A stretch of 64,000 nt of DNA from Spinellus fusiger (taxonomy: Eukaryota > Mucoromycota > Mucoromycetes > Mucorales > Phycomycetaceae), in contig JALLLS010000107.1 of assembly GCA_025094145.1 (NCBI GenBank), positions 39,632-103,631 of the forward strand, read 5' to 3'. Positions 32,501 to 61,157 of the stretch are shown one piece after another. Each line of letters begins with the position of its first letter. Position 1 is the first letter of the stretch. The position numbers and the translations under genes are program-made. The notes under the pieces are model-generated. The model did not search any database and was not told the origin of the DNA. It worked only from the letters and a program-made list of their open reading frames with translations.

Positions 32501-32508
32501 ACCATAAG

Positions 32509-32546
32509 CCTCAAACCAAACATGTAGAAAATAGTATAAAAAGGTA
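32509..32546 (+). promoter_or_regulatory. Promoter of Kre9-like gene B: CCTCAAACCA box and TATA box
   Basis: CCTCAAACCA (32509) followed 26 bp on by TATAAAAAGG (32535), 77 bp before the ATG, mirroring the arrangement before paralogue A. Confidence 0.6.
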
Positions 32547-32611
32547 GTTTACAAGCTTGTTTTTCTTTCGATATTACAACTGTTCTCTAGCTTCCAATCT
32601 TCTAAACTACA

Positions 32612-33224: not shown

Positions 33225-33410
33225 GCATTCTAGATGTGATAAAACAGGCGTTGATTTCGGAGGGGTTTTTATTGCAAAGCTCATTAGTGTAGCATAGAAA
33301 AGATTCAGACTGAGGATTCATAATTATTTTGATATTTCAAATCACGCACATTCTTATTACTTAATAAATGTGCAACCATCATTGTTATTGCTTATAATAA
33401 CTTTCTCTTA

Positions 33411-34400
33411 TGTCTTTATCAACCAACACAACTAATGCATTTAAAATGTATTCATCTGATAATATTAATCAACTTGAATTAAATGCTCTTGCTGCTATTG
33501 TATACTAATATGTTACCAGTAACAAGTTTGTTACTAAAATAACTCGTATACTCAACATGGTATCCCAGACTGTAGGAAACCTAATAAAGTATTACCAGAA
33601 TACCGGACTCATTGAAGCTTCACTAAGAGGTAGAAGAAAGAAAGAAATAGACAAGGGAGATTTGATAAATCCTTTTCAGATATGTGCTGATCATTATGAG
33701 AAGATAATAGAGGAAGTATATGTTTTCACCATGAGAAGACTCCTTAAGAGAGGGGATACCAGTGATATATGCTACATAAATAATCCTGATTAAAAGGAAA
33801 AAAAAGTATGTTTTCTGCAGACTTGATGTGCTTTTGATTGCTTCTATTAAATAAATGAACAATAAGTGATATTATGTTTGGTCTGGCAGAATAAGTATGA
33901 GACTATATACCATTCGTAAAAATAGTAGTGGTGTATCACAAGAGATGACACTGTTGATCTTCCTGAACACTTGGTAGATATGAATCAACACAGTGGTAGA
34001 GGTGTGAATACATGTATTTGATTTGGTCTTGAAAGGTGATGTGAAACCCTAGAGCTACACCTTTAGATTGAACAAGATGCATATGTCCTGAGCTCCCACA
34101 GTTATACTACCTGGATGACAAAGACCTGAAGAGTAGCAAATGTGTAAACATTGTCTTTCTGGTCACCTTATAACTCGGATCTTAATCCAATTGAGAATTC
34201 TTAGTCTCAATTAAAGAATAACAAGTGAAAAGAGAAATTAATACAGTTCCAAAAAGGATTAAAAGGCTTCTCTGATGTCAAACTGGGTAAATATACCTAA
34301 GGAGTACAACAACACTCTTTATTGACAGTATGGGGCGGAGATATCAGGCAATAATAGATGTCAAGAGGGGTATGCTAGATACTAAACTACTATAAAAATA
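33411..34400 (+). pseudogene. Degenerate Tc1/mariner transposase
   Basis: From ATG 33411 the frame has one early stop and then a helix-turn-helix (KITRILNMVSQTVGNLIKYY) followed by a basic GRRKKEIDKGD. Much further, near 34165-34215, SDLNPIENS marks the catalytic Glu region. At 34340-34375 RYQAIIDVKRGML is the family's C-terminus. Stops and frameshifts are frequent. Next to the outer border of the palindrome but not part of it. Confidence 0.6.
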
Positions 34401-34859
34401 TGAGATAGAAACACTAGCTGTACCCTATTATTTATTTAAGGTTTATAGTTTGTATATAAAGATTTGGTGAAATATTAATCCTAATAAGCCATTATACATT
34501 GATAAAGAAGCCACCTTGAATGTGAAATAACCAAGCAACTATAAATCTTTAGTTTATAAATTAATGAGACGTTGTATATAAGTTTATCAACAAAATTACA
34601 CCATTTCATATTCTGTTAAGGATTTTATTTATTTATTTCTATAATATTTTTTACTATAACTATTATTTTATTAATTTTGTAAATACAGATCACAAACCTC
34701 CTATTTTTAATAATAAAAATGGTATTACATATAAAGTGACCAACAGAAAGAATTGGGATTTTCATATTCCGGGCTATCTTTTCTTTCTTCATAACACTTC
34801 TTTTTCCCTAATATTTGACTCATCCAACACTGTAAATATTTTTTTGTCAAAACACCCGA

Positions 34860-35700
34860 GGTTCATAAGAAGTACAGCAGAACTGAGACTTACTCAATTA
34901 TCATTCATCAGGTGCTAAACATGAACAAGGGCCTCTGGTGGTTGAGAAGAACAGTAATGAGCAACTCTCACCGGACCAAAGTAACCATTATGGCAGATAT
35001 AGCCATCAAGGTATCAAGACAAACTTTGAACAAACACCCCAATGAAATAGGCTTCTATTCATTTAATCTATTGATAAATAAAAAAATAATCCTGATTCAA
35101 GTGGGCCAAAGAATATGTCAACTGGACTCATGAACAATGACAGGAAATAGTCTGGTTGGATGAGTCTATAGTAGGGCTGGTGAACCTTGACATGGGTGTC
35201 AAAGTCACCAGGAGGTACCACATGGCCTTTGATCCTGAGCATATTTTAGAAACAAAGAAGTTTATAAGTAGTGGAGTGTATGATAAACTCTATATATATA
35301 AAAAGGGTGCATTGCTTTTTTGGAAGAAGCCTACTTCCTCGAACTCAAATGTCTCACTTAAACCCTGGAGTCAGTTACTGCTTACAAGAGGACAATGTTA
35401 GATCTCATACAAGACAACACAGGAGTAAAACTAATAATAGAAAGTGATACGGTAATGGCTCTGCTAATCTGTGCAATGTTCCAATCTCAATCTAATAAAG
35501 CATCTGTGGGCTTATCTCATGAAGATTCTTAAGAAGAACAGTAGAATGCATTACACCAAACAAAATTTATAGTCTGTTGTAGTGCTGGAAATGAGTAAAG
35601 TATTGAAGGAAGAGGGAAGGTAACCTCATTGCCAATATGAGACGGAGATAATAGGCAGTGTTAGAAGCCAAGACTAGCTATAGTAGTTACTGAGTGATCT
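34860..35700 (+). pseudogene. Degenerate Tc1/mariner transposase at the outer edge of the left arm
   Basis: Reads WLRRTVMSNSHRTKVTIMAD, then IKVSRQTLNKHPNEIGFYS, a Tc1 second-HTH/linker region, and later YKRTMLDLIQDNTGV (second-Asp block in a shifted frame). The C-terminal MRRR-like end is near 35640. Many stops. Its mirror copy is at 54660-55500. Confidence 0.55.
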
Positions 35701-35739
35701 ATAAATAAATAGAAACTACTTCTGTAGTATAAATAATAT

Positions 35740-37847
35740 TTTATTTATATATTGAAAGATTCACGTCTCTATCTAATGCATTTGCAAGATTATAATAACA
35801 TCAAGATAAAGTATGAAACTAAGAAAATGAAGTATGTGTTTTTTTAAAAGAAAAGAATTCCCGCCTTATCATCTTACATAGATCATTCATGTATATTTGA
35901 AATACAAGAATAAGTCTTGACACTTATGCTATGTCCCGCAAGTCTCCATCTTTTTATTTTTATTTATATATTATATATAAAATTGGTATGTGTGCCGAAA
36001 TCAGCTATATGTAATAAAACACTATTTACATCTTACATGGATAACATTCCCAATAATGGTTTATATATCAGAATACATTAGGGCTTCTGTACATATGAAA
36101 AGCATACCATACAACGTTGACTCAGTGAAAAATGAATGACAAGTGTAATCAATGTTAGTTACCTTTTCCTTTCCCTTTTTATTCTGGTTTTCTTCATGTT
36201 TTTTTCTTTCTCTAACTTTCATGCTCAAAATCAAAGTAGCCCAGTGGCTCTATTTACTGAATGTCTCTTGAGTAAGGTCCGATACCTAGCATCATTCTAT
36301 AAGCTGGGATACAAGTCAATATCTCTTCTTTTGGCCTCAGTGAGATTTTCTCTACTTGACTGCTTCATTATTATGACCATATCTCTATGAACTCTTTAGA
36401 GATGGATATAATAGTGTTTCTTTTTATCAGAAAGTAATATTTTACATGCATAGTTCATGTTGTTGTTTCATGCTTATCTGTATGCATGTTTGTTGGCTAA
36501 AAAAAAAGAGTCAAATTTGGAAGAGAGTAGTATGTATTGCCATATTCTTTATTACTGACTGATTTAGGCTTGATAAGAGACCATGAGACATTTATAGACA
36601 GACAGAAACATCAATGCACAGCAAGTATCCATAGTAAACCTGTTGACTCTTTTCTTTATACAAGACTGATAGAGTCTTGTCGCATGTGAGTTTCAAGCAA
36701 CACAGTGACTGCATAACAGAACAGTTGTCTGGGTTGAATAGCTGAATCGATATTCTACATCATTGGTAATATTAACTACAGTCCTAGCACTGGCAATGAG
36801 TATGGCATTTATTTGATTCACCCTTCTAATGAGTTCTAAATGACTTTGTATGTGAAGTATCTCAGTGGGTTTAATATTAAGGCAATGCGATTAATAGAAC
36901 AAGTAACAAAATACAGTGATTTAATGAGTCTCATAACCTCAGTAGTCTATTGTTTCTTGTTTGAACTTCCCTATCATATACTCTCTTTGGTATGAGTTTT
37001 ATAAATCAATTATTTAATATAAATCAATAATATACCAGTGAATTTAGATGATATTATATGTCAATGATAAAAAGAAGAAAAAAGAAAGAGTGGCCGTAAT
37101 AAGACAGTGATATCTAGAAAGAATAGAATCATCGGATGCCGAAATAGAAAGACTTATTTGATTGAATCACAATATCTGATGTACGATGCTCAGTTTGTTC
37201 CGTCAATGTACTCCTTCTCTCTCAATACTCTGGCGGTGCTGAGATGGCTGAGAAATAAATTTAAGGGAGGAGATACACTTAAGAAGAGTCTGCAGAACAG
37301 ACACATATTTCTAGTGGCATAAGCGTCATGTTCTTCTATCAAAAGGCGAATTTAACACTGTGGGAACATAATAATACACATTGATTTATAGTCACAGTAG
37401 CAGGCCCAATCATAACACATGAGCAGATGAAAATATTTTCCACTTGACTCTATCTCTATAGCAGCCACCCACAGCCGTCCTTTTTATTTTCAACAGCCGA
37501 ATCCTGTGATTCACTCAGCAGTCATTATTAAGTCACAGATTTACATCTCCTACCCTAGTCAAAAAGGTATAAACATCCGCTTTATTTCCACACCTTTTCT
37601 TTTCTCTCTTTACCATCGGAAGCATTAATTGAAGAGACAGTGAGAGTTGACTTTATCATGAAACATCTCTAATCTGAAATTATGCTTGGTGTAATGGGAG
37701 TTATTTGCTCTTATGACCTATCAATTCCATAGAGTAGTCTCTTTTTAAGAGAATACTTTGTGCTTGGTAGTTTATAGTGTGTACTCACCTTTGCCTCTTT
37801 CTGCATTCTTGATGTGGTCGCTAGACATGGTTATGCGTTTATATTAT
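35740..37847. other. Left-arm DNA without a supported gene
   Basis: Contains an 84-codon open frame from ATG 36136 with a strongly hydrophobic start but no homology I recognise, and a 71-codon frame beginning with GTG at 37107. Both recur in the right arm. No gene is claimed. Confidence 0.4.
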
Positions 37848-38345
37848 TAAGCATCCTGTCTGCTCCCCTCCATCTTTAGGTTTGTAGGAAGTGTGCTGGG
37901 TGGCCTATGCATTGTGACTATGGATTGTGTGGAAACAGGAGTGATGGATACAAGTGGGTCGCTCCTGCTTGTAGGCTCAGGATTTTTCAAGGCTCGCCCT
38001 TTTTTGCCTGGACCCATTGTCGTGCTACCTGCGGCAATGTCGTAAACAATTAAGAAAATGATAATAAGCAGTCTATTCCACTGTGGCTTTGTTATATCTA
38101 TATCTATAATGAGGATAGAGTATTTATAATAATAAACAGTGAAGAATTGTGTGTATGGTTTACTTGCTAGGTGTAGCCATCACACTGCTCGACTCTGTAA
38201 AGGACTTCTTGGTAAATAGACAATGAGTGCCGCTTTAACTCTCGACCCCACAACAGAACAGAGCCCAGCTTACTTTACTTATTCTGCGTACTTCCAACGA
38301 CCACCGCAGATTAAAAGTGCTGTGTCTGTTGAGTATGATGTGTAG
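37848..38345. other. GC-richer island with two short facing-away ORFs
   Basis: Less AT-rich than the rest of the arm. Plus strand 38223-38345 encodes 40 residues (MSAALTLDPTTEQSPAYFTY...) with a good ATG context. Minus strand 38018-37848 encodes 56 residues (MGPGKKGRALKNPEPTSRSD...) and is open for about 55 further codons upstream. Neither is a family I know; they could be exons of genes I cannot assemble. Mirror positions: 52018-52140 and 52346-52516. Confidence 0.3.
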
Positions 38346-40614
38346 CCACCGCACAACCACAGCCCTTTCCCGCGAATAGCCAGGCACTGTCTGCTAGACA
38401 CCCTTAACAAACAAACAGCACCAGCCCCCGCACCAGAGCCTGTACTGCCTTTAGTCAACACAGCACACTGGAGTGCAACAACAGCATCATCTCTCATTCA
38501 CTCACCAGACTCCAAGACCCTTTATGTTTGTAAAAGGAGAAGTTCTTCAAGAAAAGTCATCAACGTCATGAGTCATCCAGAAACACATCCTCAGTTGTTT
38601 GAGTCTATCGCTGCTTATTGCTCGTTGCAATGGGATATACACTATGCTATTCTTCTTTATCAATGACTGTACTTTTGGTTGTGATTCTGTGGATACAATT
38701 GCTATTGGTGATTCACAAAAGAGAGTGCATTTAGGCCGCAAACAGCACATCTCATTGTGTATTATTCTTTTCTGTGTCGACTGAACTCATTCTACTCCCA
38801 TAGTCAAACAATATTCAACACAATCAGAGTGAATGTGTTGATCATGCTCTAGCCTCCATTAACTTGTCTTTGAGTACCTCTCTCTACAGTCATAGCTTAA
38901 AAGGGGTCAATCCAATTCTTCTATCACTACTTATAGATACTAAGCACTATAGAACTGACTGTGGTGGATCAGGTTCAGCCAGTCATCCAAGAAGAGTGTT
39001 GCGCTTTTGCTACTGGATAACAGTTACAGTGGGTGCCAATGACAGATAATGTATAATAGGTAGTGCACTTTAACAAATAAAGAATAAATAAAAAAACAAA
39101 GAATAAAAAGATGCTTATTAGGAAGAAGACAGACACTAGACTGGCTGTTTACTTAATACATCATAAATCCATCTATACTATTCAAATGAGTATGCAATCC
39201 ATGCCTATTTAACAAGGATAAATGGGCAATAAGACTCTAATACATTCTCATTCTGTCCCAACAGATGTACCAAGATACTGGCTGTATAGATTTATTCTAG
39301 TGATGGTTTTATTGAAATAAGTGCAACCACACACATGCAGCAGCCAACGCTTTCTTTTTGTTTGTGATTGAGCTACCATTGTCAGCTCCTCAGCATGTCA
39401 TTATCATGTCATTATTGAAGCAATGGGACTTGAGAACAACAAATAAATACACCCGATGGAAGGTATGTATGACTTACAAATTCAACAGGACATACTCCAG
39501 GCTCAGGGACTAGAAGTTATCCAAGTGGAGACTGTGCCATTCAACAAGAACACAAAGATATTTGGATCGAATTATGACTATTATTCAATACTTTTTAAGC
39601 ATGTGTACTCTTTGCTGTAAGAATAAGATATAAAAGCCTATACATTTCATAACATATTGAGATACAAAAAGACTCTTTAAAATATGCCATTAATTTCATA
39701 TGAGAAAGAGACACATAAGTTATATATTGGAGTCTCCCCACATTCTCATACATAGAGTTTATTTTAAACAATTGCTTAAAGTCATTAAGTTATTATTTTA
39801 TATACATGTAATTGATTCTTTATGGAGACGCTGTGTCCTTAAATCATGTTTTTTTTAATAGCATCTTGGTTGTTCAGATATATAATTTGTTCTTTTATAT
39901 AAATTGGCAATACTTTCTTTGTTGAGGCACTATTAATTTAATTTGGCTACTACTTTTAAACATCTTTATCTGAAAACTCAATAAATTTAAAGACTTTCCC
40001 TCAACTGTTTCTATTAAATTAAGTCCTTCCATATGTATGATTCATCATCTATTATCTTGACCTCAGTTGTTTGATTGTTCAAAGAAAACAGGGCCTTGAC
40101 ACCAGCTTGAATCAATCACAGTCTATTTCATCAAACATAATAGAAAAGATATTTATTTTACTACTCCTATTTTCAGATGTTGAGATGTAGTCACTATTTC
40201 TCAGGCATCAATAGTATCTTACAGTATTGAATGTGATATAATATTAATTATTTCAAAACAATAGTAAGTAGAAACCAACAAAGAATACACATAGAATGAG
40301 AGATAGAAAATAGAAAGAAAATGATATGACACATAAAAAACAAGAAACAGAAACAAAAGTGTGTACAACAAAGATCAGAGAATAATTTTTATAGATATTC
40401 TTGGCTATTAAATATTTATGTTGATAATGAACTTCTTTCAGGTAGAAGAATGTAAAGTGACCCTCAATAAGTAACTGCTTTTCTTCAAATACATATTTTC
40501 TTTTTTAATTTTATACTTTTCTTGATATTGTTATAATTTCATGAATTCATTAGATAAAGACGTAAAAGGTTTAATAGATATATAGAATAGTGTTTATAAT
40601 ACAAAATGGTGGGT
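38346..40614. other. Left-arm DNA without a supported gene
   Basis: GC-richer to about 38530, then ordinary AT-rich sequence. Short open frames exist on both strands and recur in the other arm, but none has a recognised motif. Confidence 0.4.
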
Positions 40615-40623
40615 TTATTACAA

Positions 40624-42010
40624 GGTCACTTGGTAGCAATTGCTAGTCTTTGACATCTACTACAGTCTGGCATCTCCCTCTTATGCTGGCAATAAGGTTG
40701 TCTGTCACTTTCTTCTATAGTTTGCCCTATTATAGCATTAGAGCCGCTGTTAAATTTAAAGAACTATCATACCCAAAGGCAAGATGATTTTATTAAAACA
40801 ATTTTGACAAGTCTATTTATACTAAATAGACAGGTGGCTGTGTACTAAGTATGATCTATTGCTGCTTTAGGATGCTTGATAATATTGGCCTGTTCAGTAG
40901 ACTTTAATATACAGTGTCTTAACTATGAATTACGTTGTAGAAAGGAGACAACCTAATAATCAGTCTATAACTGTCACTGTTGTTGTTGTGATTACAACAG
41001 CTGCTTTCAGATTCTGTTTGGTAGAATATACAATCCTGAACTTCCTAATAACCTTCTTGAGGTAGGCTCACAGATGCTCAATTGGATTGAGATCTGGATT
41101 ATGTAAGGGCCAGTAAAGAGACACTACTACACCATTTACTGCCTTCCATTCTTTAGTTACCTTGCTCATATGAGGTCTAGCATTGCTATCCTGTAAGTGG
41201 TAGCTGACTCAAGGGTTTAGGAGAGAAAGAAGAACGTTTAAAAGTATTATGTTTCCAATTATTTATAAAATATCTTAGGCTTAATTTTAAATAAATAGAA
41301 AGTATATAATTACATAATTGTTTTATAAATTAAATTGAGGTAATAAAAATATCATTTGAATTATGAAAATATAGTAAGCTTATAATTATTAATTACATTT
41401 AAAGCTAATTTGTATATTTAAAGATAAAATATATATTTAAAGTTGTTAGATGTTTAGCATATTTATAAAAATAAAGATTACATCAGTATAATTACTTTTA
41501 AAACGTTATTCAAAGAAATAGTTGAGTTTGTATTAATAGGCCTCTCTTAAGCCATTGATGGATTTGTCATAGTATTCTGCCCTCTACTATAATCAATCTT
41601 TCAACAACCTCCCCACTGAGACAGCTCCATATCATCACTCCACTACCTCCAAACTTTCTTGACTCTAAGAAATATTTGGGCTCAAAGCCTGCACCAGACT
41701 GCCTGATGACTTTGATGCCCCTGTAATAACTTATTAGCTCTACTTTGGACTCATATAACCATACTACCTGGTGAAGAAAGGCTCTATCCCCAGTCTTTAC
41801 AAATGGAATTGCATCCCATTAAAGTACTTTTTCAAGGTTGGTCCTGATACCTTGATGACTATGTCTGCCATAATGGCCTTCTTGGTCTGATGGAGTTTCT
41901 CATTACTGTTCTCAGTAATCAGAGGGCCCTGTTGTCAATTTTTCTTTTTCTGCCACTCTTGGGTGAGATTACCAATAAGTCTGTCTCATTGAAGTGGATC
42001 ATTATTTTTC
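40624..42010 (-). pseudogene. Degenerate Tc1/mariner transposase, left arm, split by a MITE-like insertion
   Basis: Minus strand, in order: an N-terminal HTH remnant near 42000, HQVVWLYESKVELISYYRG, KFGGSGVMIWSCLSGEVVER (first-Asp to glycine block), then after the insertion QDSNARPHMSKVTKEWKAVN (second Asp), SLYWPLHNPDLNPIEHL (third, Glu) and near 40660 RCQTVVDVKD. The catalytic residues remain visible but the frame is broken by stops. Related to, but distinct from, the Tc1 copies at 6.8-10.8 kb. Confidence 0.7.
41234..41506. mobile_element. MITE-like insertion with inverted ends
   Basis: About 273 bp, strongly AT-rich, starting AACGTTTAAAAGTATTATG and ending ATAATTACTTTTAAAACGTT, imperfect inverted repeats of about 19 bp. 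It lies between the first-Asp and second-Asp blocks of the Tc1 relic, interrupting an otherwise ordered transposase. No coding capacity. Mirror copy at 48856-49128. Confidence 0.55.
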
Positions 42011-42019
42011 TCAGTGTGT

Positions 42020-44032
42020 TGTATCCAGGTTCAATGCAGAAACATGTCTAACATAAGTAGCACCACTCAATTGCATTAACACTGATAAGTAATTAGGGTC
42101 ATGTGTGTAGACTCAACTATAGGAGACACATAAGTGTAACTATAGCAATTGAATAGTATATAAAGAGCTGTATATTCCACTAAATAAAAGCAATTTATTC
42201 TTGGATAAATTCCTGTCATTTCTACAGTCTCTTTATTCTTCAGTTCAGATAAAACACAGTGTTAGGAAGCACATTGAACATGCAAAATGCCTTGGTCATA
42301 GTAGTGTTTATGCTCAGCACACTATATAGAATGGCTGAACTAATTTCAAAGCTAGTGTACCTTCCAAACATTTTGGGATTTTTGATGAAAATGCTGATAT
42401 TGTTGAATGAGTCAGATATTACATGATGAAAGAAAAAATAAAACAGTATACACTATTTATTTATTACTAAAATAAAGGTTTTCTTTATTCTTACCATGTA
42501 ATGCTATTAAATAAACTCACCAATACTACATAATCCATGATATAAAACAGAATATAATATAATATAATATAATTTTATGTTGCTAATCTGAGTGCTGCTT
42601 ACCTTTTGCTGTTGCTTTATTGTTAAATTTTTGATTGTTATCAGTGGCTATTATAAGAGCTTCTTGTTTTGACATTTATCCCAACACTTGTAAGAATGTG
42701 AAATAAAACCTTTCAAGTGACTTTTCTTATACTTTTGTATATCTCTATATTATTTTTGATTAGGTTTTCTATTGTATGAAGTCACACTTACCCTGAGTAG
42801 ACTGAAGACAGGGCATATTCAGTCAATTAAAGCATATGTAAATTAGTATAAATAAGCAAGTAGTTTGAATGAATAAAAGTATCTTCTATCCTTTCTTTAC
42901 TATTCTTTATTGATATACATGGGCTTCAGTCCAGACCTTGTTGTCCTCAGTTTCTTCTTATTTCTGTCTCTACTTTTGGGCTTAGTATTATCCTGAGTAA
43001 ATTGGTAAACAACATATTTTGACACGTGTGGTACTTATGGGTGTGTGTGTGATGGACAGAAAGGTAAAGTAACAAGGAAAGAAAAGGGTTCAGAATAGAA
43101 ATTGGAGGTAAGGTTTGTGAACAAATAGAAAGAATAGAGAAATAGTCTGTTCAAGTGAATAGACTATGAAAACAAATAGAAATGATACTTTGCAACACAA
43201 CAGTGAAGCAAAAGAAAATAGATAAAAGGGGAACAACAGTACATGCAGGTACAAAAATAAGAGAATGCAATCAATACTTTGCTAAGAATTGATTCATAGA
43301 TAACAATGACACTTCACAAGAAAACACAGTAGCACTGCCCACAACTTGTATCAGAAGATATCAAAAGAAAATAATGGAAGAATAAAAGATAATAGAAGAT
43401 CTTGGAGTAGTATTTGACAATTTATTTCAGTTCTTGGTTAATGGGAATATTTATACTAAAGAACTAAATGTTAAAATAGAGAATGATTTCATAAGAAATC
43501 AATCTTAGAGAAAATGAATTAAGACAATTGCATTGTTACTACATCATGGATGAATAACAACTACAAATTTAATAAGCTAAACTAGCATTGTTATAAGAAT
43601 ATATCATAACAATGATTCTTCAGGAGAAAACAAAAAGGAAAGAGAAACTAAAATAGTGCCATTGAGGTGAAATCATAGTAATGAAGTTATCCACTACAAA
43701 AGCAACTAAAATAGCATAAAGAAATACATCATAGAAAAGAGAAAACAAGTTTAGGTAGAAAACAGAATAGTATGAGAAAAAGAGTAAAGAAAGGAAAAAG
43801 GATTGTGGGACAAGAGCATTGATCTCTTTACCACATACAGAAAATGTCAGAAACATATTGGTTTCCAAAAGAGGAAGAAAAGAGAAGATCAACACAAAAG
43901 GAAAGAAAGAGGAACAGAACCAAAAAGGAAATAGTCAAGGAACAGAGAAATTTGTAAAGTCAATTCCCTGCACTACACCTGGCAGTCACTGAGGCCATCA
44001 AGGTCACAACACCACGTGTCAAATTTATATAT
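42020..44032. other. Left-arm DNA without a supported gene
   Basis: Contains an ATAAT-type short repeat at about 42550-42572 and a 91-codon hydrophobic open frame (43895-43620, minus) without ATG context or homology that I recognise. No gene is claimed. Confidence 0.4.
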
Positions 44033-44115
44033 GGTAACTTGGCCGAGTTGGTCTAAGGCGCCGCACTCAAGTTGCGGTCTCGCAAGAGGCGTGAGTTCGA
44101 ATCTCACAGTTACCA
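44033..44115 (+). tRNA. tRNA-Leu (anticodon CAA), left arm
   Basis: 83 nt including the discriminator A. Acceptor GGTAACT pairs with AGTTACC. D-arm GGCCGAGTTGGTCTAAGG. Anticodon stem CCGCA/TGCGG with loop CTCAAGT, anticodon CAA at 44068-44070 (reads UUG). A long variable arm (TCTCGCAAGAGGC) is typical of class II tRNA-Leu. T-arm GTGAG-TTCGAAT-CTCAC. No intron. A TTTTTT run at 44118 is a normal Pol III terminator. A perfect mirror copy is at 46247-46329. Confidence 0.96.
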
Positions 44116-44515
44116 TCTTTTTTGCTGTCATCTACACTTGATAATTGTTTTGTTTGCTTTTTATCAAACACATCTGTAATTGTTCTATATATCATTTTAT
44201 AAAATGAGTTTCTCAACTTCACAATTTGGCCAAACACCCATAAAAAGTTAGAAAAATAATATTAACAACTCTGCCAGTCTTGGATCAGTACATTGGTGAA
44301 TACTATTCATAAGACTAATCAAATATAGGATACCATGCAGTTGAATAATTACAACTATTACAGCATATAAAACAGAAAGCAGTAACAGTTTTTTTTGTAA
44401 AGGAGACTGAGCTCAAATGTATTGTGAAAATATAAATTGTGAAACTAAAATAGAATGTAGTGTAATGATGCTTGGGATGAGATCTTAGAGACTTGTAGGG
44501 TCCTTGGGGAGGATG

Positions 44516-45093
44516 TGTTGTGTTCTGACTTCAATCCAAAGATTCTTCATGAATTGGTCAACATGAGTAGTATGCTGTGACATTCAGAATACTCTATGAA
44601 AGCTTGAGTGCACACAAGTACCATAGTACATCTCTGTATCATCTCACTGATTGGTCATAACTACAAATCAACCTTCTAAGCTCAAATTATTATCAGACAC
44701 TTAATGAGCTGCCTTCATCTATAAATCTTTAGTGGATTAAATAAGACCTATCACAGACAATTAAAAGTGAAGACATAATAGATGGCTCTATAATGGTGTG
44801 CTTATTCAATAAACCAACCACAAGGCTCCAACATGTAGTCTACCATTAGGTAGAACAGCTACACCAACCATAAAGCTACACCTATGTAAACTACCATAGG
44901 ATAAATCATCTACACCAACCATATGGTTGCATCTATCAATAAGCTATGCCATGGAATAATCATTAACTACCAAAAGGTAGAATGCCACTGAAGGATAAGC
45001 ACCCACAAAAAGTATAAATAATGAACCACTCTTCACTTAATAAAAATCATCTTTGTTCAGTCTTGTTACTTTCTACTTGTCTGAATAATTACA
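44516..45093 (+). mobile_element. Solo LTR (family B) at the inner end of the left arm
   Basis: 578 bp from TGTTGTGTTCTGAC to CTGAATAATTACA. Flanked by GGATG on both sides (44511-44515 and 45094-45098), a 5-bp target duplication, so this is a clean solo insertion 0.4 kb downstream of the tRNA gene. Tandem ACCAACCATA motifs and AAGTATAAATAATG are shared with the copy at 5426-6002. Confidence 0.85.
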
Positions 45094-45272
45094 GGATGGC
45101 TACAGACACAGATAGAAGAGAGCAGGAAAGAAGATTGGGGATGTCCTTGTGGTTGTGATAGATTGATAACAGACAGATGTCTGGTATAGGGGTGTAATTG
45201 AGAGTCAGCCACAAGAGGGACAATGGATCCAATGGTAATGCCAGTGAGAGCCAATGGGGAAAGACAATTGTT
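45090..45272. other. Unique spacer at the palindrome centre
   Basis: About 183 bp not repeated between arms. It begins with the last bases and target duplication of the left LTR (TACAGGATGG) and ends GACAATTGTTA, where ACAATTGT (45264-45271) is itself an 8-bp palindrome at the junction with the right LTR. No ORF with a known family; not an adapter-like sequence. Confidence 0.8.
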
Positions 45273-45846
45273 ATTATTCAGACAAGTAGAAAGTAACAAG
45301 ACTGAACAAAGATGATTTTTATTAAGTGAAGAGTGGTTCATTATTTATACTTTTTGTGGGTGCTTATCCTTCAGTGGCATTCTACCTTTTGGTAGTTAAT
45401 GATTATTCCATGGCATAGCTTATTGATAGATGCAACCATATGGTTGGTGTAGATGATTTATCCTATGGTAGTTTACATAGGTGTAGCTTTATGGTTGGTG
45501 TAGCTGTTCTACCTAATGGTAGACTACATGTTGGAGCCTTGTGGTTGGTTTATTGAATAAGCACACCATTATAGAGCCATCTATTATGTCTTCACTTTTA
45601 ATTGTCTGTGATAGGTCTTATTTAATCCACTAAAGATTTATAGATGAAGGCAGCTCATTAAGTGTCTGATAATAATTTGAGCTTAGAAGGTTGATTTGTA
45701 GTTATGACCAATCAGTGAGATGATACAGAGATGTACTATGGTACTTGTGTGCACTCAAGCTTTCATAGAGTATTCTGAATGTCACAGCATACTACTCATG
45801 TTGACCAATTCATGAAGAATCTTTGGATTGAAGTCAGAACACAACA
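45269..45846 (-). mobile_element. Solo LTR (family B) at the inner end of the right arm
   Basis: Mirror image of 44516-45093. The outer flank carries the same GGATG (CATCC at 45847-45851), but the inner flank is ATTGT and the last bases read AATAATAACA instead of AATAATTACA. The target duplication is therefore present on the outer side only, as expected if the LTR was copied with the arm up to a break near its end. Confidence 0.85.
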
Positions 45847-46246
45847 CATCCTCCCCAAGGACCCTACAAGTCTCTAAGATCTCATCCCAAGCATCATTAC
45901 ACTACATTCTATTTTAGTTTCACAATTTATATTTTCACAATACATTTGAGCTCAGTCTCCTTTACAAAAAAAACTGTTACTGCTTTCTGTTTTATATGCT
46001 GTAATAGTTGTAATTATTCAACTGCATGGTATCCTATATTTGATTAGTCTTATGAATAGTATTCACCAATGTACTGATCCAAGACTGGCAGAGTTGTTAA
46101 TATTATTTTTCTAACTTTTTATGGGTGTTTGGCCAAATTGTGAAGTTGAGAAACTCATTTTATAAAATGATATATAGAACAATTACAGATGTGTTTGATA
46201 AAAAGCAAACAAAACAATTATCAAGTGTAGATGACAGCAAAAAAGA

Positions 46247-46329
46247 TGGTAACTGTGAGATTCGAACTCACGCCTCTTGCGAGACCGCAACTTGAGTGCG
46301 GCGCCTTAGACCAACTCGGCCAAGTTACC
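46247..46329 (-). tRNA. tRNA-Leu (anticodon CAA), right arm
   Basis: Exact reverse complement of the tRNA at 44033-44115, with all arms intact and the A/T-run terminator downstream on the minus strand. Both genes should be expressible, doubling the dose of this tRNA if the palindrome is real. Confidence 0.96.
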
Positions 46330-48351
46330 ATATATAAATTTGACACGTGGTGTTGTGACCTTGATGGCCTCAGTGACTGCCAGGTGTAGTGCAGGGAATT
46401 GACTTTACAAATTTCTCTGTTCCTTGACTATTTCCTTTTTGGTTCTGTTCCTCTTTCTTTCCTTTTGTGTTGATCTTCTCTTTTCTTCCTCTTTTGGAAA
46501 CCAATATGTTTCTGACATTTTCTGTATGTGGTAAAGAGATCAATGCTCTTGTCCCACAATCCTTTTTCCTTTCTTTACTCTTTTTCTCATACTATTCTGT
46601 TTTCTACCTAAACTTGTTTTCTCTTTTCTATGATGTATTTCTTTATGCTATTTTAGTTGCTTTTGTAGTGGATAACTTCATTACTATGATTTCACCTCAA
46701 TGGCACTATTTTAGTTTCTCTTTCCTTTTTGTTTTCTCCTGAAGAATCATTGTTATGATATATTCTTATAACAATGCTAGTTTAGCTTATTAAATTTGTA
46801 GTTGTTATTCATCCATGATGTAGTAACAATGCAATTGTCTTAATTCATTTTCTCTAAGATTGATTTCTTATGAAATCATTCTCTATTTTAACATTTAGTT
46901 CTTTAGTATAAATATTCCCATTAACCAAGAACTGAAATAAATTGTCAAATACTACTCCAAGATCTTCTATTATCTTTTATTCTTCCATTATTTTCTTTTG
47001 ATATCTTCTGATACAAGTTGTGGGCAGTGCTACTGTGTTTTCTTGTGAAGTGTCATTGTTATCTATGAATCAATTCTTAGCAAAGTATTGATTGCATTCT
47101 CTTATTTTTGTACCTGCATGTACTGTTGTTCCCCTTTTATCTATTTTCTTTTGCTTCACTGTTGTGTTGCAAAGTATCATTTCTATTTGTTTTCATAGTC
47201 TATTCACTTGAACAGACTATTTCTCTATTCTTTCTATTTGTTCACAAACCTTACCTCCAATTTCTATTCTGAACCCTTTTCTTTCCTTGTTACTTTACCT
47301 TTCTGTCCATCACACACACACCCATAAGTACCACACGTGTCAAAATATGTTGTTTACCAATTTACTCAGGATAATACTAAGCCCAAAAGTAGAGACAGAA
47401 ATAAGAAGAAACTGAGGACAACAAGGTCTGGACTGAAGCCCATGTATATCAATAAAGAATAGTAAAGAAAGGATAGAAGATACTTTTATTCATTCAAACT
47501 ACTTGCTTATTTATACTAATTTACATATGCTTTAATTGACTGAATATGCCCTGTCTTCAGTCTACTCAGGGTAAGTGTGACTTCATACAATAGAAAACCT
47601 AATCAAAAATAATATAGAGATATACAAAAGTATAAGAAAAGTCACTTGAAAGGTTTTATTTCACATTCTTACAAGTGTTGGGATAAATGTCAAAACAAGA
47701 AGCTCTTATAATAGCCACTGATAACAATCAAAAATTTAACAATAAAGCAACAGCAAAAGGTAAGCAGCACTCAGATTAGCAACATAAAATTATATTATAT
47801 TATATTATATTCTGTTTTATATCATGGATTATGTAGTATTGGTGAGTTTATTTAATAGCATTACATGGTAAGAATAAAGAAAACCTTTATTTTAGTAATA
47901 AATAAATAGTGTATACTGTTTTATTTTTTCTTTCATCATGTAATATCTGACTCATTCAACAATATCAGCATTTTCATCAAAAATCCCAAAATGTTTGGAA
48001 GGTACACTAGCTTTGAAATTAGTTCAGCCATTCTATATAGTGTGCTGAGCATAAACACTACTATGACCAAGGCATTTTGCATGTTCAATGTGCTTCCTAA
48101 CACTGTGTTTTATCTGAACTGAAGAATAAAGAGACTGTAGAAATGACAGGAATTTATCCAAGAATAAATTGCTTTTATTTAGTGGAATATACAGCTCTTT
48201 ATATACTATTCAATTGCTATAGTTACACTTATGTGTCTCCTATAGTTGAGTCTACACACATGACCCTAATTACTTATCAGTGTTAATGCAATTGAGTGGT
48301 GCTACTTATGTTAGACATGTTTCTGCATTGAACCTGGATACAACACACTGA
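46330..48351. other. Right-arm DNA without a supported gene
   Basis: Mirror of 42020-44032. Confidence 0.4.
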
Positions 48352-49738
48352 GAAAAATAATGATCCACTTCAATGAGACAGACTTATTGGTAATCTCACC
48401 CAAGAGTGGCAGAAAAAGAAAAATTGACAACAGGGCCCTCTGATTACTGAGAACAGTAATGAGAAACTCCATCAGACCAAGAAGGCCATTATGGCAGACA
48501 TAGTCATCAAGGTATCAGGACCAACCTTGAAAAAGTACTTTAATGGGATGCAATTCCATTTGTAAAGACTGGGGATAGAGCCTTTCTTCACCAGGTAGTA
48601 TGGTTATATGAGTCCAAAGTAGAGCTAATAAGTTATTACAGGGGCATCAAAGTCATCAGGCAGTCTGGTGCAGGCTTTGAGCCCAAATATTTCTTAGAGT
48701 CAAGAAAGTTTGGAGGTAGTGGAGTGATGATATGGAGCTGTCTCAGTGGGGAGGTTGTTGAAAGATTGATTATAGTAGAGGGCAGAATACTATGACAAAT
48801 CCATCAATGGCTTAAGAGAGGCCTATTAATACAAACTCAACTATTTCTTTGAATAACGTTTTAAAAGTAATTATACTGATGTAATCTTTATTTTTATAAA
48901 TATGCTAAACATCTAACAACTTTAAATATATATTTTATCTTTAAATATACAAATTAGCTTTAAATGTAATTAATAATTATAAGCTTACTATATTTTCATA
49001 ATTCAAATGATATTTTTATTACCTCAATTTAATTTATAAAACAATTATGTAATTATATACTTTCTATTTATTTAAAATTAAGCCTAAGATATTTTATAAA
49101 TAATTGGAAACATAATACTTTTAAACGTTCTTCTTTCTCTCCTAAACCCTTGAGTCAGCTACCACTTACAGGATAGCAATGCTAGACCTCATATGAGCAA
49201 GGTAACTAAAGAATGGAAGGCAGTAAATGGTGTAGTAGTGTCTCTTTACTGGCCCTTACATAATCCAGATCTCAATCCAATTGAGCATCTGTGAGCCTAC
49301 CTCAAGAAGGTTATTAGGAAGTTCAGGATTGTATATTCTACCAAACAGAATCTGAAAGCAGCTGTTGTAATCACAACAACAACAGTGACAGTTATAGACT
49401 GATTATTAGGTTGTCTCCTTTCTACAACGTAATTCATAGTTAAGACACTGTATATTAAAGTCTACTGAACAGGCCAATATTATCAAGCATCCTAAAGCAG
49501 CAATAGATCATACTTAGTACACAGCCACCTGTCTATTTAGTATAAATAGACTTGTCAAAATTGTTTTAATAAAATCATCTTGCCTTTGGGTATGATAGTT
49601 CTTTAAATTTAACAGCGGCTCTAATGCTATAATAGGGCAAACTATAGAAGAAAGTGACAGACAACCTTATTGCCAGCATAAGAGGGAGATGCCAGACTGT
49701 AGTAGATGTCAAAGACTAGCAATTGCTACCAAGTGACC
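48352..49738 (+). pseudogene. Degenerate Tc1/mariner transposase, right arm (mirror copy)
   Basis: Mirror of 40624-42010 with the same blocks and breaks, now on the plus strand. Confidence 0.7.
48856..49128. mobile_element. MITE-like insertion, right arm (mirror copy)
   Basis: Mirror of 41234-41506, same inverted ends. Confidence 0.55.
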
Positions 49739-49739
49739 T

Positions 49740-52017
49740 TGTAATAAACCCACCATTTTGTATTATAAACACTATTCTATATATCTATTAAACCTTTTAC
49801 GTCTTTATCTAATGAATTCATGAAATTATAACAATATCAAGAAAAGTATAAAATTAAAAAAGAAAATATGTATTTGAAGAAAAGCAGTTACTTATTGAGG
49901 GTCACTTTACATTCTTCTACCTGAAAGAAGTTCATTATCAACATAAATATTTAATAGCCAAGAATATCTATAAAAATTATTCTCTGATCTTTGTTGTACA
50001 CACTTTTGTTTCTGTTTCTTGTTTTTTATGTGTCATATCATTTTCTTTCTATTTTCTATCTCTCATTCTATGTGTATTCTTTGTTGGTTTCTACTTACTA
50101 TTGTTTTGAAATAATTAATATTATATCACATTCAATACTGTAAGATACTATTGATGCCTGAGAAATAGTGACTACATCTCAACATCTGAAAATAGGAGTA
50201 GTAAAATAAATATCTTTTCTATTATGTTTGATGAAATAGACTGTGATTGATTCAAGCTGGTGTCAAGGCCCTGTTTTCTTTGAACAATCAAACAACTGAG
50301 GTCAAGATAATAGATGATGAATCATACATATGGAAGGACTTAATTTAATAGAAACAGTTGAGGGAAAGTCTTTAAATTTATTGAGTTTTCAGATAAAGAT
50401 GTTTAAAAGTAGTAGCCAAATTAAATTAATAGTGCCTCAACAAAGAAAGTATTGCCAATTTATATAAAAGAACAAATTATATATCTGAACAACCAAGATG
50501 CTATTAAAAAAAACATGATTTAAGGACACAGCGTCTCCATAAAGAATCAATTACATGTATATAAAATAATAACTTAATGACTTTAAGCAATTGTTTAAAA
50601 TAAACTCTATGTATGAGAATGTGGGGAGACTCCAATATATAACTTATGTGTCTCTTTCTCATATGAAATTAATGGCATATTTTAAAGAGTCTTTTTGTAT
50701 CTCAATATGTTATGAAATGTATAGGCTTTTATATCTTATTCTTACAGCAAAGAGTACACATGCTTAAAAAGTATTGAATAATAGTCATAATTCGATCCAA
50801 ATATCTTTGTGTTCTTGTTGAATGGCACAGTCTCCACTTGGATAACTTCTAGTCCCTGAGCCTGGAGTATGTCCTGTTGAATTTGTAAGTCATACATACC
50901 TTCCATCGGGTGTATTTATTTGTTGTTCTCAAGTCCCATTGCTTCAATAATGACATGATAATGACATGCTGAGGAGCTGACAATGGTAGCTCAATCACAA
51001 ACAAAAAGAAAGCGTTGGCTGCTGCATGTGTGTGGTTGCACTTATTTCAATAAAACCATCACTAGAATAAATCTATACAGCCAGTATCTTGGTACATCTG
51101 TTGGGACAGAATGAGAATGTATTAGAGTCTTTATTGCCCATTTATCCTTGTTAAATAGGCATGGATTGCATACTCATTTGAATAGTATAGATGGATTTAT
51201 GATGTATTAAGTAAACAGCCAGTCTAGTGTCTGTCTTCTTCCTAATAAGCATCTTTTTATTCTTTGTTTTTTTATTTATTCTTTATTTGTTAAAGTGCAC
51301 TACCTATTATACATTATCTGTCATTGGCACCCACTGTAACTGTTATCCAGTAGCAAAAGCGCAACACTCTTCTTGGATGACTGGCTGAACCTGATCCACC
51401 ACAGTCAGTTCTATAGTGCTTAGTATCTATAAGTAGTGATAGAAGAATTGGATTGACCCCTTTTAAGCTATGACTGTAGAGAGAGGTACTCAAAGACAAG
51501 TTAATGGAGGCTAGAGCATGATCAACACATTCACTCTGATTGTGTTGAATATTGTTTGACTATGGGAGTAGAATGAGTTCAGTCGACACAGAAAAGAATA
51601 ATACACAATGAGATGTGCTGTTTGCGGCCTAAATGCACTCTCTTTTGTGAATCACCAATAGCAATTGTATCCACAGAATCACAACCAAAAGTACAGTCAT
51701 TGATAAAGAAGAATAGCATAGTGTATATCCCATTGCAACGAGCAATAAGCAGCGATAGACTCAAACAACTGAGGATGTGTTTCTGGATGACTCATGACGT
51801 TGATGACTTTTCTTGAAGAACTTCTCCTTTTACAAACATAAAGGGTCTTGGAGTCTGGTGAGTGAATGAGAGATGATGCTGTTGTTGCACTCCAGTGTGC
51901 TGTGTTGACTAAAGGCAGTACAGGCTCTGGTGCGGGGGCTGGTGCTGTTTGTTTGTTAAGGGTGTCTAGCAGACAGTGCCTGGCTATTCGCGGGAAAGGG
52001 CTGTGGTTGTGCGGTGG
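49740..52017. other. Right-arm DNA without a supported gene
   Basis: Mirror of 38346-40614. Confidence 0.4.
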
Positions 52018-52516
52018 CTACACATCATACTCAACAGACACAGCACTTTTAATCTGCGGTGGTCGTTGGAAGTACGCAGAATAAGTAAAGTAAGCTGGGC
52101 TCTGTTCTGTTGTGGGGTCGAGAGTTAAAGCGGCACTCATTGTCTATTTACCAAGAAGTCCTTTACAGAGTCGAGCAGTGTGATGGCTACACCTAGCAAG
52201 TAAACCATACACACAATTCTTCACTGTTTATTATTATAAATACTCTATCCTCATTATAGATATAGATATAACAAAGCCACAGTGGAATAGACTGCTTATT
52301 ATCATTTTCTTAATTGTTTACGACATTGCCGCAGGTAGCACGACAATGGGTCCAGGCAAAAAAGGGCGAGCCTTGAAAAATCCTGAGCCTACAAGCAGGA
52401 GCGACCCACTTGTATCCATCACTCCTGTTTCCACACAATCCATAGTCACAATGCATAGGCCACCCAGCACACTTCCTACAAACCTAAAGATGGAGGGGAG
52501 CAGACAGGATGCTTAA
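52018..52516. other. GC-richer island with two short ORFs (mirror copy)
   Basis: Mirror of 37848-38345: 40-residue ORF on minus (52140-52018) and 56-residue ORF on plus (52346-52516). Immediately downstream ATGTCTAGCGACCACATC at about 52534 opens a further 18-codon frame that ends in a GGTGAGT donor-like site, hinting at exons of an unassembled gene. Confidence 0.3.
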
Positions 52517-52519
52517 TAA

Positions 52520-54650
52520 TATAAACGCATAACCATGTCTAGCGACCACATCAAGAATGCAGAAAGAGGCAAAGGTGAGTACACACTATAAACTACCAAG
52601 CACAAAGTATTCTCTTAAAAAGAGACTACTCTATGGAATTGATAGGTCATAAGAGCAAATAACTCCCATTACACCAAGCATAATTTCAGATTAGAGATGT
52701 TTCATGATAAAGTCAACTCTCACTGTCTCTTCAATTAATGCTTCCGATGGTAAAGAGAGAAAAGAAAAGGTGTGGAAATAAAGCGGATGTTTATACCTTT
52801 TTGACTAGGGTAGGAGATGTAAATCTGTGACTTAATAATGACTGCTGAGTGAATCACAGGATTCGGCTGTTGAAAATAAAAAGGACGGCTGTGGGTGGCT
52901 GCTATAGAGATAGAGTCAAGTGGAAAAATATTTTCATCTGCTCATGTGTTATGATTGGGCCTGCTACTGTGACTATAAATCAATGTGTATTATTATGTTC
53001 CCACAGTGTTAAATTCGCCTTTTGATAGAAGAACATGACGCTTATGCCACTAGAAATATGTGTCTGTTCTGCAGACTCTTCTTAAGTGTATCTCCTCCCT
53101 TAAATTTATTTCTCAGCCATCTCAGCACCGCCAGAGTATTGAGAGAGAAGGAGTACATTGACGGAACAAACTGAGCATCGTACATCAGATATTGTGATTC
53201 AATCAAATAAGTCTTTCTATTTCGGCATCCGATGATTCTATTCTTTCTAGATATCACTGTCTTATTACGGCCACTCTTTCTTTTTTCTTCTTTTTATCAT
53301 TGACATATAATATCATCTAAATTCACTGGTATATTATTGATTTATATTAAATAATTGATTTATAAAACTCATACCAAAGAGAGTATATGATAGGGAAGTT
53401 CAAACAAGAAACAATAGACTACTGAGGTTATGAGACTCATTAAATCACTGTATTTTGTTACTTGTTCTATTAATCGCATTGCCTTAATATTAAACCCACT
53501 GAGATACTTCACATACAAAGTCATTTAGAACTCATTAGAAGGGTGAATCAAATAAATGCCATACTCATTGCCAGTGCTAGGACTGTAGTTAATATTACCA
53601 ATGATGTAGAATATCGATTCAGCTATTCAACCCAGACAACTGTTCTGTTATGCAGTCACTGTGTTGCTTGAAACTCACATGCGACAAGACTCTATCAGTC
53701 TTGTATAAAGAAAAGAGTCAACAGGTTTACTATGGATACTTGCTGTGCATTGATGTTTCTGTCTGTCTATAAATGTCTCATGGTCTCTTATCAAGCCTAA
53801 ATCAGTCAGTAATAAAGAATATGGCAATACATACTACTCTCTTCCAAATTTGACTCTTTTTTTTTAGCCAACAAACATGCATACAGATAAGCATGAAACA
53901 ACAACATGAACTATGCATGTAAAATATTACTTTCTGATAAAAAGAAACACTATTATATCCATCTCTAAAGAGTTCATAGAGATATGGTCATAATAATGAA
54001 GCAGTCAAGTAGAGAAAATCTCACTGAGGCCAAAAGAAGAGATATTGACTTGTATCCCAGCTTATAGAATGATGCTAGGTATCGGACCTTACTCAAGAGA
54101 CATTCAGTAAATAGAGCCACTGGGCTACTTTGATTTTGAGCATGAAAGTTAGAGAAAGAAAAAAACATGAAGAAAACCAGAATAAAAAGGGAAAGGAAAA
54201 GGTAACTAACATTGATTACACTTGTCATTCATTTTTCACTGAGTCAACGTTGTATGGTATGCTTTTCATATGTACAGAAGCCCTAATGTATTCTGATATA
54301 TAAACCATTATTGGGAATGTTATCCATGTAAGATGTAAATAGTGTTTTATTACATATAGCTGATTTCGGCACACATACCAATTTTATATATAATATATAA
54401 ATAAAAATAAAAAGATGGAGACTTGCGGGACATAGCATAAGTGTCAAGACTTATTCTTGTATTTCAAATATACATGAATGATCTATGTAAGATGATAAGG
54501 CGGGAATTCTTTTCTTTTAAAAAAACACATACTTCATTTTCTTAGTTTCATACTTTATCTTGATGTTATTATAATCTTGCAAATGCATTAGATAGAGACG
54601 TGAATCTTTCAATATATAAATAAAATATTATTTATACTACAGAAGTAGTT
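52520..54650. other. Right-arm DNA without a supported gene
   Basis: Mirror of 35740-37847. Confidence 0.4.
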
Positions 54651-54659
54651 TCTATTTAT

Positions 54660-55500
54660 TTATAGATCACTCAGTAACTACTATAGCTAGTCTTGGCTTC
54701 TAACACTGCCTATTATCTCCGTCTCATATTGGCAATGAGGTTACCTTCCCTCTTCCTTCAATACTTTACTCATTTCCAGCACTACAACAGACTATAAATT
54801 TTGTTTGGTGTAATGCATTCTACTGTTCTTCTTAAGAATCTTCATGAGATAAGCCCACAGATGCTTTATTAGATTGAGATTGGAACATTGCACAGATTAG
54901 CAGAGCCATTACCGTATCACTTTCTATTATTAGTTTTACTCCTGTGTTGTCTTGTATGAGATCTAACATTGTCCTCTTGTAGGCAGTAACTGACTCCAGG
55001 GTTTAAGTGAGACATTTGAGTTCGAGGAAGTAGGCTTCTTCCAAAAAAGCAATGCACCCTTTTTATATATATAGAGTTTATCATACACTCCACTACTTAT
55101 AAACTTCTTTGTTTCTAAAATATGCTCAGGATCAAAGGCCATGTGGTACCTCCTGGTGACTTTGACACCCATGTCAAGGTTCACCAGCCCTACTATAGAC
55201 TCATCCAACCAGACTATTTCCTGTCATTGTTCATGAGTCCAGTTGACATATTCTTTGGCCCACTTGAATCAGGATTATTTTTTTATTTATCAATAGATTA
55301 AATGAATAGAAGCCTATTTCATTGGGGTGTTTGTTCAAAGTTTGTCTTGATACCTTGATGGCTATATCTGCCATAATGGTTACTTTGGTCCGGTGAGAGT
55401 TGCTCATTACTGTTCTTCTCAACCACCAGAGGCCCTTGTTCATGTTTAGCACCTGATGGATGATAATTGAGTAAGTCTCAGTTCTGCTGTACTTCTTATG
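54660..55500 (-). pseudogene. Degenerate Tc1/mariner transposase, outer edge of right arm (mirror copy)
   Basis: Mirror of 34860-35700 with one substitution that changes a residue (LLLTRGQC in the left arm, LLPTRGQC here). Confidence 0.55.
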
Positions 55501-55572
55501 AACCTCGGGTGTTTTGACAAAAATATTTACAGTGTCGGATGAGTCAAGTATTAGGGAAAAAGAAGTGTTATA

Positions 55573-56500
55573 AAAAAGAAATAGTGTTTGTTATTCTTTT
55601 GTATAAAAATAGCCCGAAATTTGAGAAAAGAATAGGTTAATTATTAAGTGTCACTCTATTATCAACACTACTATCTTTATGCATTAAAAGTTTTATGTTT
55701 CTATCTAATGAATGCATAAAGTTATAATAATATCAAAAAAGTATGATTATATATGAATATATAAAAGAAATATGTATTTAAAATAGCCCAAGACATTCTT
55801 TTCATCACTTTATTAACATATTTTCATTATTCATTGAAAGTGTCATACCCATCTCTAAGAAATTCATGAGATTACAGTCCTATCAAAGTATTTTTTTAAA
55901 TAAATAAATAAATAAACATCTATCCTTTTATATCCATCACTCTAACAACTAAAATCACTTCATACTATACCATGAACATTATTCAGCTTAAAGTCTGATT
56001 ACTTGGAGAAACGTCTCAGATTCAATTTTATTAACATTCATTTTCCATCTTTAACTCATTAGAATAAAACATTGAAGTTTTTCTTTGTGTTTCTCTTCTT
56101 GAGTATAGGTTTGTCTATGATTTCTAAATAATAATCTTTTTTCTTATATACACTATTTCAGGAAAATAATGAGACAAAGTAATATCTCAAAAATAAAATA
56201 AAAACACTTTGAACTTTATACAGATTCGACTCGATACCTGTGAAACCAAAAAAGAGGAATTCACATCTCATATTCAATATCAAGACTCTATAAAGTGAAT
56301 GAGTTTGAACACAGACACCCAGCTTCTCATAGCGCGATGTGCCAATGATAAGCCAAATGTCTTAGTCAGCATAGAAACTTGTCCAAATCTCCATCCCCAT
56401 CATGATTACTTTAATTCAGCACTGTCAGAGTGTTATTTTATATGAAGAATGAGGGAATGCAAGAAAGAAAAGAAAGTGAAAGAAAGAAAGAAATGTAAGA
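55573..56500. other. Intergenic, 3' flank of the bZIP gene
   Basis: AT-rich, with (AAAT)n at about 55890-55912 and a GAAA-rich run at 56462-56490 next to the bZIP stop codon. No gene seen. Confidence 0.45.
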
Positions 56501-56502
56501 CA

Positions 56503-57691
56503 TCAAGACACTTTCTTCTCTACTATTTCTAATACTCGTTGAATTTCTTCTTCTTCAAACATGGGTCCAGTTTCAGAACACATAGCAAACTGCTTTAGCT
56601 TATCAAACACCTCGTCCAAGTCAAACTCTTCAAAACTAGGATGGTTTGACAATCTCTTCCAGACCTGTGAACAAGGAATTAACCTGGCCCGTAGTGATGA
56701 TTCTTGACGAGGTGTATTTTCTAATCGCTCGGTAATTGTCTGTGCAAACTTATCGAATAGTTTCTTTGCACTCTTGACTATATCATCCGTCTCATTGTCC
56801 ACTGTCATGCGTCCAGTGACAATGGGAACACGGTGTTGAGTCACTGTATCATTCAGCAGCCCCGTAGCATCAAACAGTGGTTCTGACAAGAGTTGGTTGT
56901 AGGCAGAGTTGCATACTTCCTTCTTGAGTCTCTCACAGAAAGAGATTCCATCTTTATCACGTATACAGGCAATAGCAGAAGAAGAGGCTCGTTGTAATTG
57001 TACCTCTTTATGTACTGAGGAAAGGGTAGGAGGTGTCTCATGTCCCGAACCCAATACCAATCCCAAGGGTTCTGTGTTACTTTCTGTTGCCTGGAGACGA
57101 AGCTGCATTTCTCTCATAGCAGATCTTAATTCGCCATTCTCTCTTTCCAGGCGGTCTATATGAAACGCATGGGCTGTTTCAATAGCCTTAATCTTCTCCT
57201 CGAGTTCTTTTACGTAGACTTCTTTTCGTGCTCTGAACGCACGTTGTGCTGTCCGGTTCTGTTCTCTGCGCCGCTTTCTCTGGTCTACTGCGAATGACTA
57301 AGCCATGGTAGGTTATAGGGTATGTTACTAAGCACATGGACACACAGACACACACAGACACATGGCAACTGCTTACCTGGGAGTGAACACTGCTGTCGGA
57401 TACACTGCCCTCTATTTCATACTTAGATAAACAAAGAAAAAGAGAGGATAGGGGAGGGTATGTTTTCTAATAGGATAGTCTATAGTCACCTTGATGAAAG
57501 GCCTCATTGCAGTCGTTGGCTTGATATGGCCGTGTGGGCTTTGGTGTGTTCTCTATGGCAGGTAACTCCCATGCATGCTTTTCATTTGTATTTATTCTTA
57601 GTGCCTGTGGAAGAATGGGGTTGGGTGCAATAGGTCGGAAGGGAGATGTCCAGACGGGTGGTGAGTTTTGGAGGGTCCCAGGCTGAGGCAT
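56503..57691 (-). CDS. Yap1/Pap1-type (AP-1-like) bZIP transcription factor
   Basis: Exon 3 (57297-56503, 264 residues) carries the basic region RRREQNRTAQRAFRARK, with the NxxAQxxFRxRK signature of fungal Yap/Pap1 factors, then a leucine-zipper stretch (KELEEKIKAIE ... LERENGELRSAMREMQ). Its C-terminus has IPCSQVWKRLSNHPSFEEFD and FAMCSETGP, the layout of the C-terminal Cys-rich redox domain. Exon 2 (57421-57377) adds YEIEGSVSDSSVHSQ. A likely exon 1 (57691-57490) starts MPQPGTLQNSPPVW and is Pro-rich. Exons 2 and 3 join in phase, but exon 1 to exon 2 is off by one base with the visible GT donor, so the 5' end is uncertain. Known role of the family: oxidative-stress and drug-response transcription, with redox-controlled nuclear export. 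Confidence 0.85.
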
Positions 57692-57879
57692 GGACAGGAT
57701 TAAGAACTATAAAAATAAAAAGAAGCAGTCCAAGTCATTTCCATTTCTATCCATCAGTTCATTGGATGGATTTTTACAGCGGGAGGCAAGACAGGCAGTA
57801 TAGGGAATGTTTATGCAAAAATATCTATAGACACAAACATAGATATCTATATCTATATCTATATCTATAGATATATGTA

Positions 57880-57916
<37 letters not shown>

Positions 57917-58847: not shown

Positions 58848-58849
58848 TG

Positions 58850-60335: not shown

Positions 60336-60339
60336 TGTA

Positions 60340-61150: not shown

Positions 61151-61157
61151 TATCTGT

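Follow-up and report, generated by a model that had tools for sequence, protein, structure and literature searches.

Introduction

Two reports on yeast describe how a break near inverted repeats gives rise to a hairpin, which is copied back into a dicentric chromosome and stabilised by a non-reciprocal translocation via repeats (PMC10622511; PMC3974649). Fold-back between spaced or divergent transposon pairs has been reported in single-stranded DNA, and whole-genome amplification is reported to make inverted chimeras (PMC10164571 and PMC13265396, respectively); gene-converting Y-chromosome palindromes are mentioned in PMC5490193. Here we analyse a 20.8-kb palindrome in a 64,000-nucleotide stretch of Spinellus fusiger DNA (the window; positions 39632-103631 of contig C10 in an assembly of 197 contigs and 38 Mb), whose end is the end of the contig (103,631 bp). 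The palindrome is built around two facing long terminal repeats (LTRs), and we give roughly even chances to its being a fold-back inverted duplication formed in the fungus.

Results

Geometry of the palindrome

The trimmed arms are mutual reverse complements of 10,303 bp each, between which we counted five substitutions and four gap columns. BLAST comparison of the window with itself, which confirmed the near-perfect palindrome proposed in the initial annotation, returned the inverted pair 34780-45093 / 55581-45269 at 99.89% identity over 10,316 columns; the second-longest self-match of the window spans only 1,237 bp. Chance cannot account for a 10-kb match of this kind. The differences concentrate within the outer 600 bp: three substitutions (34814, 34826 and 34905) and a 2-bp TT indel fall in the outermost 115 bp, and a further substitution lies at 35382. 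Two single-base indels are found farther in (37435 and 39230), and the substitution at 45090 is four bases off the inner LTR tip.

34791-45093, plus strand: left arm (self-alignment; flank to its left single-copy)
45269-55571, minus strand: right arm, copied from the left arm (its outermost part is of C125 type, beginning somewhere in 55161-55459)
44032-44117, plus strand: tRNA-Leu(CAA) gene of the left arm
46245-46330, minus strand: tRNA-Leu(CAA) gene of the right arm

The inner part of the arm (40500-42750) is found in full twice in the assembly, both times on C10, and other parts of the arms are multicopy across the genome. The DNA left of 34.79 kb had been called unique, and the left flank (31400-34770) indeed occurs once. 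Each arm carries, as annotated, a tRNA gene and an LTR, the latter solo. The labels of Tc1 relics and miniature inverted-repeat transposable elements could not be confirmed: four open frames lying within or next to three copies of a 1-kb repeat adjoining the tRNA gene gave no Pfam match above the curated cut-off, and one match below it (CtIP_N). Just outside the left arm, a 34-42 bp motif (within 34725-34770) is 93-100% identical at six other loci and is perhaps the tip of a small transposon.

Facing LTRs at the centre

The inner arm edges are the tips of two facing solo LTRs (family Z, 578 bp), which sit within an older LTR-like repeat, Y.

44516-45093, plus strand: left LTR, 578 bp
45269-45846, minus strand: right LTR, 578 bp
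45094-45268, no strand assigned: spacer, 175 bp, interior of repeat Y (genome matches and alignment)
44461-45268, plus strand: stretch covering the left LTR and the spacer (alignment with five other copies)

Y sequence runs uninterrupted between the two LTRs, and their facing orientation together with the intact Y indicates an inverted repeat with a spacer that predated the palindrome. The spacer had been described as unique; its full-length match is found here only, with eight other places in the assembly matching most of its length at 73-76%. A read artefact would be marked by a mirror point lacking a natural repeat or spacer. Here 175 bp separate the LTR tips and there is no such mirror point, in keeping with the earlier argument against a simple missed-adapter read.

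A clean target duplication flanks the left LTR. The right LTR has the same outer flank as the left one and a different inner flank, and this mix marks the right LTR as a hybrid, so that the right arm is the copy and the left arm the original. The two LTRs differ by one mismatch, as compared with at least 4% in other Z copies; with the hybrid flanks, this is the pattern of one arm having been copied and the mismatches of the repeat erased. The missing half of Y was absent among 38 matches, and a linear continuation past the second LTR was not found in the assembly, a picture that an assembly gap would give equally in both cases. On contig C183, the tip of an LTR of family Z adjoins Y at a different position, with a reverse Z copy close by, and Z and Y have thus been juxtaposed on more than one occasion.

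A switch to C125 sequence within repeat X

A dispersed repeat, X, which also occurs on contig C125, makes up the outer 5.66 kb of each arm.

34791-40454, plus strand: left-arm copy of repeat X (further copies in C125, C71, C158, C168, C57 and others)
49908-55571, minus strand: repeat X in the right arm (switch to C125 sequence inside)
55572-64000, plus strand: right flank, duplicating C125:289522-297966 (holds the bZIP gene BDF14DRAFT_1809925; error-like from ~61.4 kb)

We compared the two arms and C125 at substitution sites, excluding gap columns. Inward of 35000, the right arm agrees with the left at 75 of the 76 sites where the three differ, the exception being 35382, where the left arm alone has T; outward of 35000, it agrees with C125 at all three. 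The change from left-arm type to C125 type is thereby placed between 55161 and 55459, and X in C125 then continues into the same DNA that adjoins the right arm. The 75 substitutions relative to C125 that the arms share, against one at which they differ, also bear out the initial view that the insertions carried by the arms are much older than the duplication.

The indel at 37435 is an extra base in the right arm alone. The C125 copy of X has ten single-base gaps at positions where both arms and C71 agree, so that either contig may hold the true neighbour of the right flank; X in C71 is 99.6% identical to that in C125 and has different flanks. The sequence left of X in C125 (273001-283613) has no match to the window. 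A 1.5-kb part of X (37116-38659) has matches of 83-98% identity at 17 further places, and the copies read contain no long reading frame.

The DNA right of 55.57 kb, annotated as unique, turned out to duplicate an interior stretch of C125: the right flank (55572-63990) is present in full twice in the assembly, on C10 and C125, and the next 3 kb of C125, past the C10 end, only once. In C10 the palindrome is joined, inside a dispersed repeat, to C125 sequence. From the switch point to 61.4 kb the window equals C125, with no substitution and one indel, and in 61476-63894 C10 shows 11 substitutions and 15 single-base losses relative to C125, differences that look like those of poorly corrected read ends. 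Within the flank, a 264-amino-acid frame (56503-57297; bZIP, PAP1) matches BDF14DRAFT_1809925 of S. fusiger (Mucorales, Phycomycetaceae) at 100%, a protein recorded for two contigs.

Inverted pairs elsewhere in the assembly

Further inverted pairs came as a by-product of targeted queries, not of a whole-genome survey, and yield no rate. Within the window, 6746-7982 and 9527-10763 are inverted copies of a 1.35-kb transposon-like repeat with 99.84% mutual identity, as compared with at most 94% at other loci of the family. Contig C84 (16,721 bp), of which 1-8000 and 13500-16721 were read, corresponds to window 6019-22799 except that its 1.5-kb spacer is inverted, and on this comparison reads as a flip isomer of the 6746-10763 locus. 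The spacer of C84 has 24 differing columns and its two arms three, and the spacer and left flank carry read-like errors, which suggests that the C84 form is backed by few molecules. The left flank extends only ~0.7 kb outside the arm.

In contig C94 (14,516 bp; 4539-10539 read), positions 4539-8498 are the reverse complement of C189:22269-18315 (99.7%) and positions 8283-10539 equal C189:20013-22269, so that the contig is folded at a facing repeat pair whose linear form is present in C189. Contig C168 (7524-17527) holds a palindrome with X, its arms at least 4.78 kb long and 100% identical around a 440-bp spacer, and C163 has 205-bp arms, 100% identical and 135 bp apart, deep within a 193-kb contig. 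A broader and rather unlikely proposal is that facing transposon pairs in this multinucleate fungus keep flipping their spacers, folding back and capturing arms at shared repeats; one mycelium would then hold nuclei of differing structural forms, some of them caught as contigs such as C84 and C94.

A repeat beside tRNA genes

A ~1-kb repeat (43027-44023) stops 8 bp before the tRNA-Leu gene. At 9 of the 12 loci of this repeat we found tRNA genes, of several kinds (the query contained tRNA-Leu, and Leu matches are therefore partly expected), as compared with none at 26 loci that represent other repeats or the centres of inverted pairs. The repeat, or the adjoining LTR Z, is probably part of elements with tRNA genes as insertion sites.

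Discussion

The facing LTRs, the hybrid LTR, the copied arm, the switch in X and the second copy of the C125 flank are direct observations, and a fold-back would connect them as follows. Two solo LTRs of family Z came to lie 175 bp apart, facing each other, in the old repeat Y. The end, freed by a break or a stalled fork past the second LTR, would have folded back and this LTR annealed to the first, with the left side being copied outward into a hairpin and then the palindrome. The DNA past the second LTR would have been lost, which is consistent with the data, and break-induced replication at the shared repeat X may then have captured another chromosome arm. Repeats of 578 bp are short relative to long-read overlaps, so that the centre is hard to create by assembly alone, and some molecules probably are folded. 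In the fungus these may predominate or be a minority; they may also have arisen in the tube.

The join to C125 is more doubtful than this centre. Several observations weigh against a simple fold-back with capture: the right flank matches C125 without a substitution over 6.3 kb and the C10 end is ~1% error-like, as in a contig-end overlap; at 35382/54982 the right arm sides with C125 amid sites of left-arm type; and at the indel at 39230 it again agrees with C125, the left arm alone being one base short. These two sites disturb the order expected of a single switch, unless only the left arm has changed at them. The folded C94 beside the linear C189 adds that these data do contain folded molecules other than the main form. 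The outer join, lying in a 5-kb repeat of ~98% identity near a contig end with an error-rich tail, fits a misjoin, and also a recent capture in which the sequence merges with C125. Even given a fold-back in the fungus, we expect the C125 join to be real in less than half of cases, and otherwise to be a contig-end overlap via X.

The chief alternative, which we rate somewhat below an even chance, is that the C10 end was assembled from a small number of folded molecules, either amplification chimeras or a rare isomer, and then extended through X by a C125 read, the main form being linear and unassembled. C10 stops 8.4 kb past the palindrome inside the C125 copy, in the poor sequence expected where a read artefact meets a contig end, and the switch point sits within a 5-kb repeat. 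The example of C94, a 14.5-kb contig of which the 6 kb read are folded C189 DNA, points the same way, as does the reported production of inverted chimeras by multiple displacement amplification (PMC13265396). Against it, a linear form elsewhere in the assembly, which would mark a read artefact, was found for C94 and not for the palindrome, although an assembly gap would look alike; the arms show few private changes (35382 and 39230 on the left, 37435 on the right) and no read-like error load, although polishing could have erased such a load; the tail of the C168 palindrome (1-2000) occurs once; and a search for how this DNA had been prepared returned no statement. The artefact concern voiced in the initial annotation is thus strengthened for the outer right join, with its C125 repeat and error-like contig end, and weakened for the centre.

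Palindromes of the mammalian Y chromosome are large, with near-identical arms and gene conversion between them. That the arms here belong to an old palindrome of this type is improbable: the clustering of differences in the outer 600 bp, the 6746-10763 pair being likewise much closer to each other than to its family, and the inverted spacer of that pair in C84, by which such arms are able to recombine, would all suit homogenisation, but the switch to C125 sequence accounts for most of the outer cluster, and the hybrid LTR and the lost half of Y are unexplained by an old palindrome. Scarcely credible is that the inverted repeat has a function, for instance as a centromere whose arms bear tRNA genes. 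The tRNA genes and the multicopy X, of which the copies read lack long reading frames, recall such a structure, as does the similar X-bearing palindrome in C168; the spacer is, however, a 175-bp fragment of an old repeat, there is no central core, and among the contigs matching X, closely mirrored X matches occur in C168 only.

The host fungus has many nuclei, and these could shelter such damage if the fold-back is true; the locus would then offer a fold-back inversion that arose naturally and without selection, both of whose junctions can be read to the base, in a setting other than the yeast assays that defined the pathway. If it is an artefact, inverted transposon pairs near the contig ends of this assembly are to be distrusted, as is the C10 copy of BDF14DRAFT_1809925.

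The palindrome is best read as a fold-back centred on the facing LTRs, a structure of an already known kind, and not as a long-lived one. Its big, near-identical arms are like those of Y-chromosome palindromes; it differs in showing no sign of age and in having been made by one-sided copying. With amplification-derived palindromic reads it shares an inverted duplication about a turning point; these are pervasive and often multi-inversion (PMC13265396), whereas the present palindrome turns at a defined LTR pair and its flanks in the contig are not alike. As in fold-back at widely spaced or divergent inverted repeats in long single-stranded DNA, facing transposon copies would be the folding site, with spacing and some divergence tolerated, although that system used experimental Alu pairs in a yeast cdc13 mutant (PMC10164571). 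The fold-back inversions of Saccharomyces cerevisiae were recovered in assays, for the most part in repair mutants, and the spontaneous cases had repeats of 3-15 bp (PMC3974649; PMC10622511), whereas the present case involves 578-bp LTRs in an unselected fungus and one assembly, its join being seen in assembled sequence. The two nevertheless agree in having a spaced, pre-existing inverted repeat at the centre, repeat mismatches gone, duplication running outward, an end at a dispersed repeat and, if the join here is real, a link to another chromosome arm (PMC3974649; PMC10622511).
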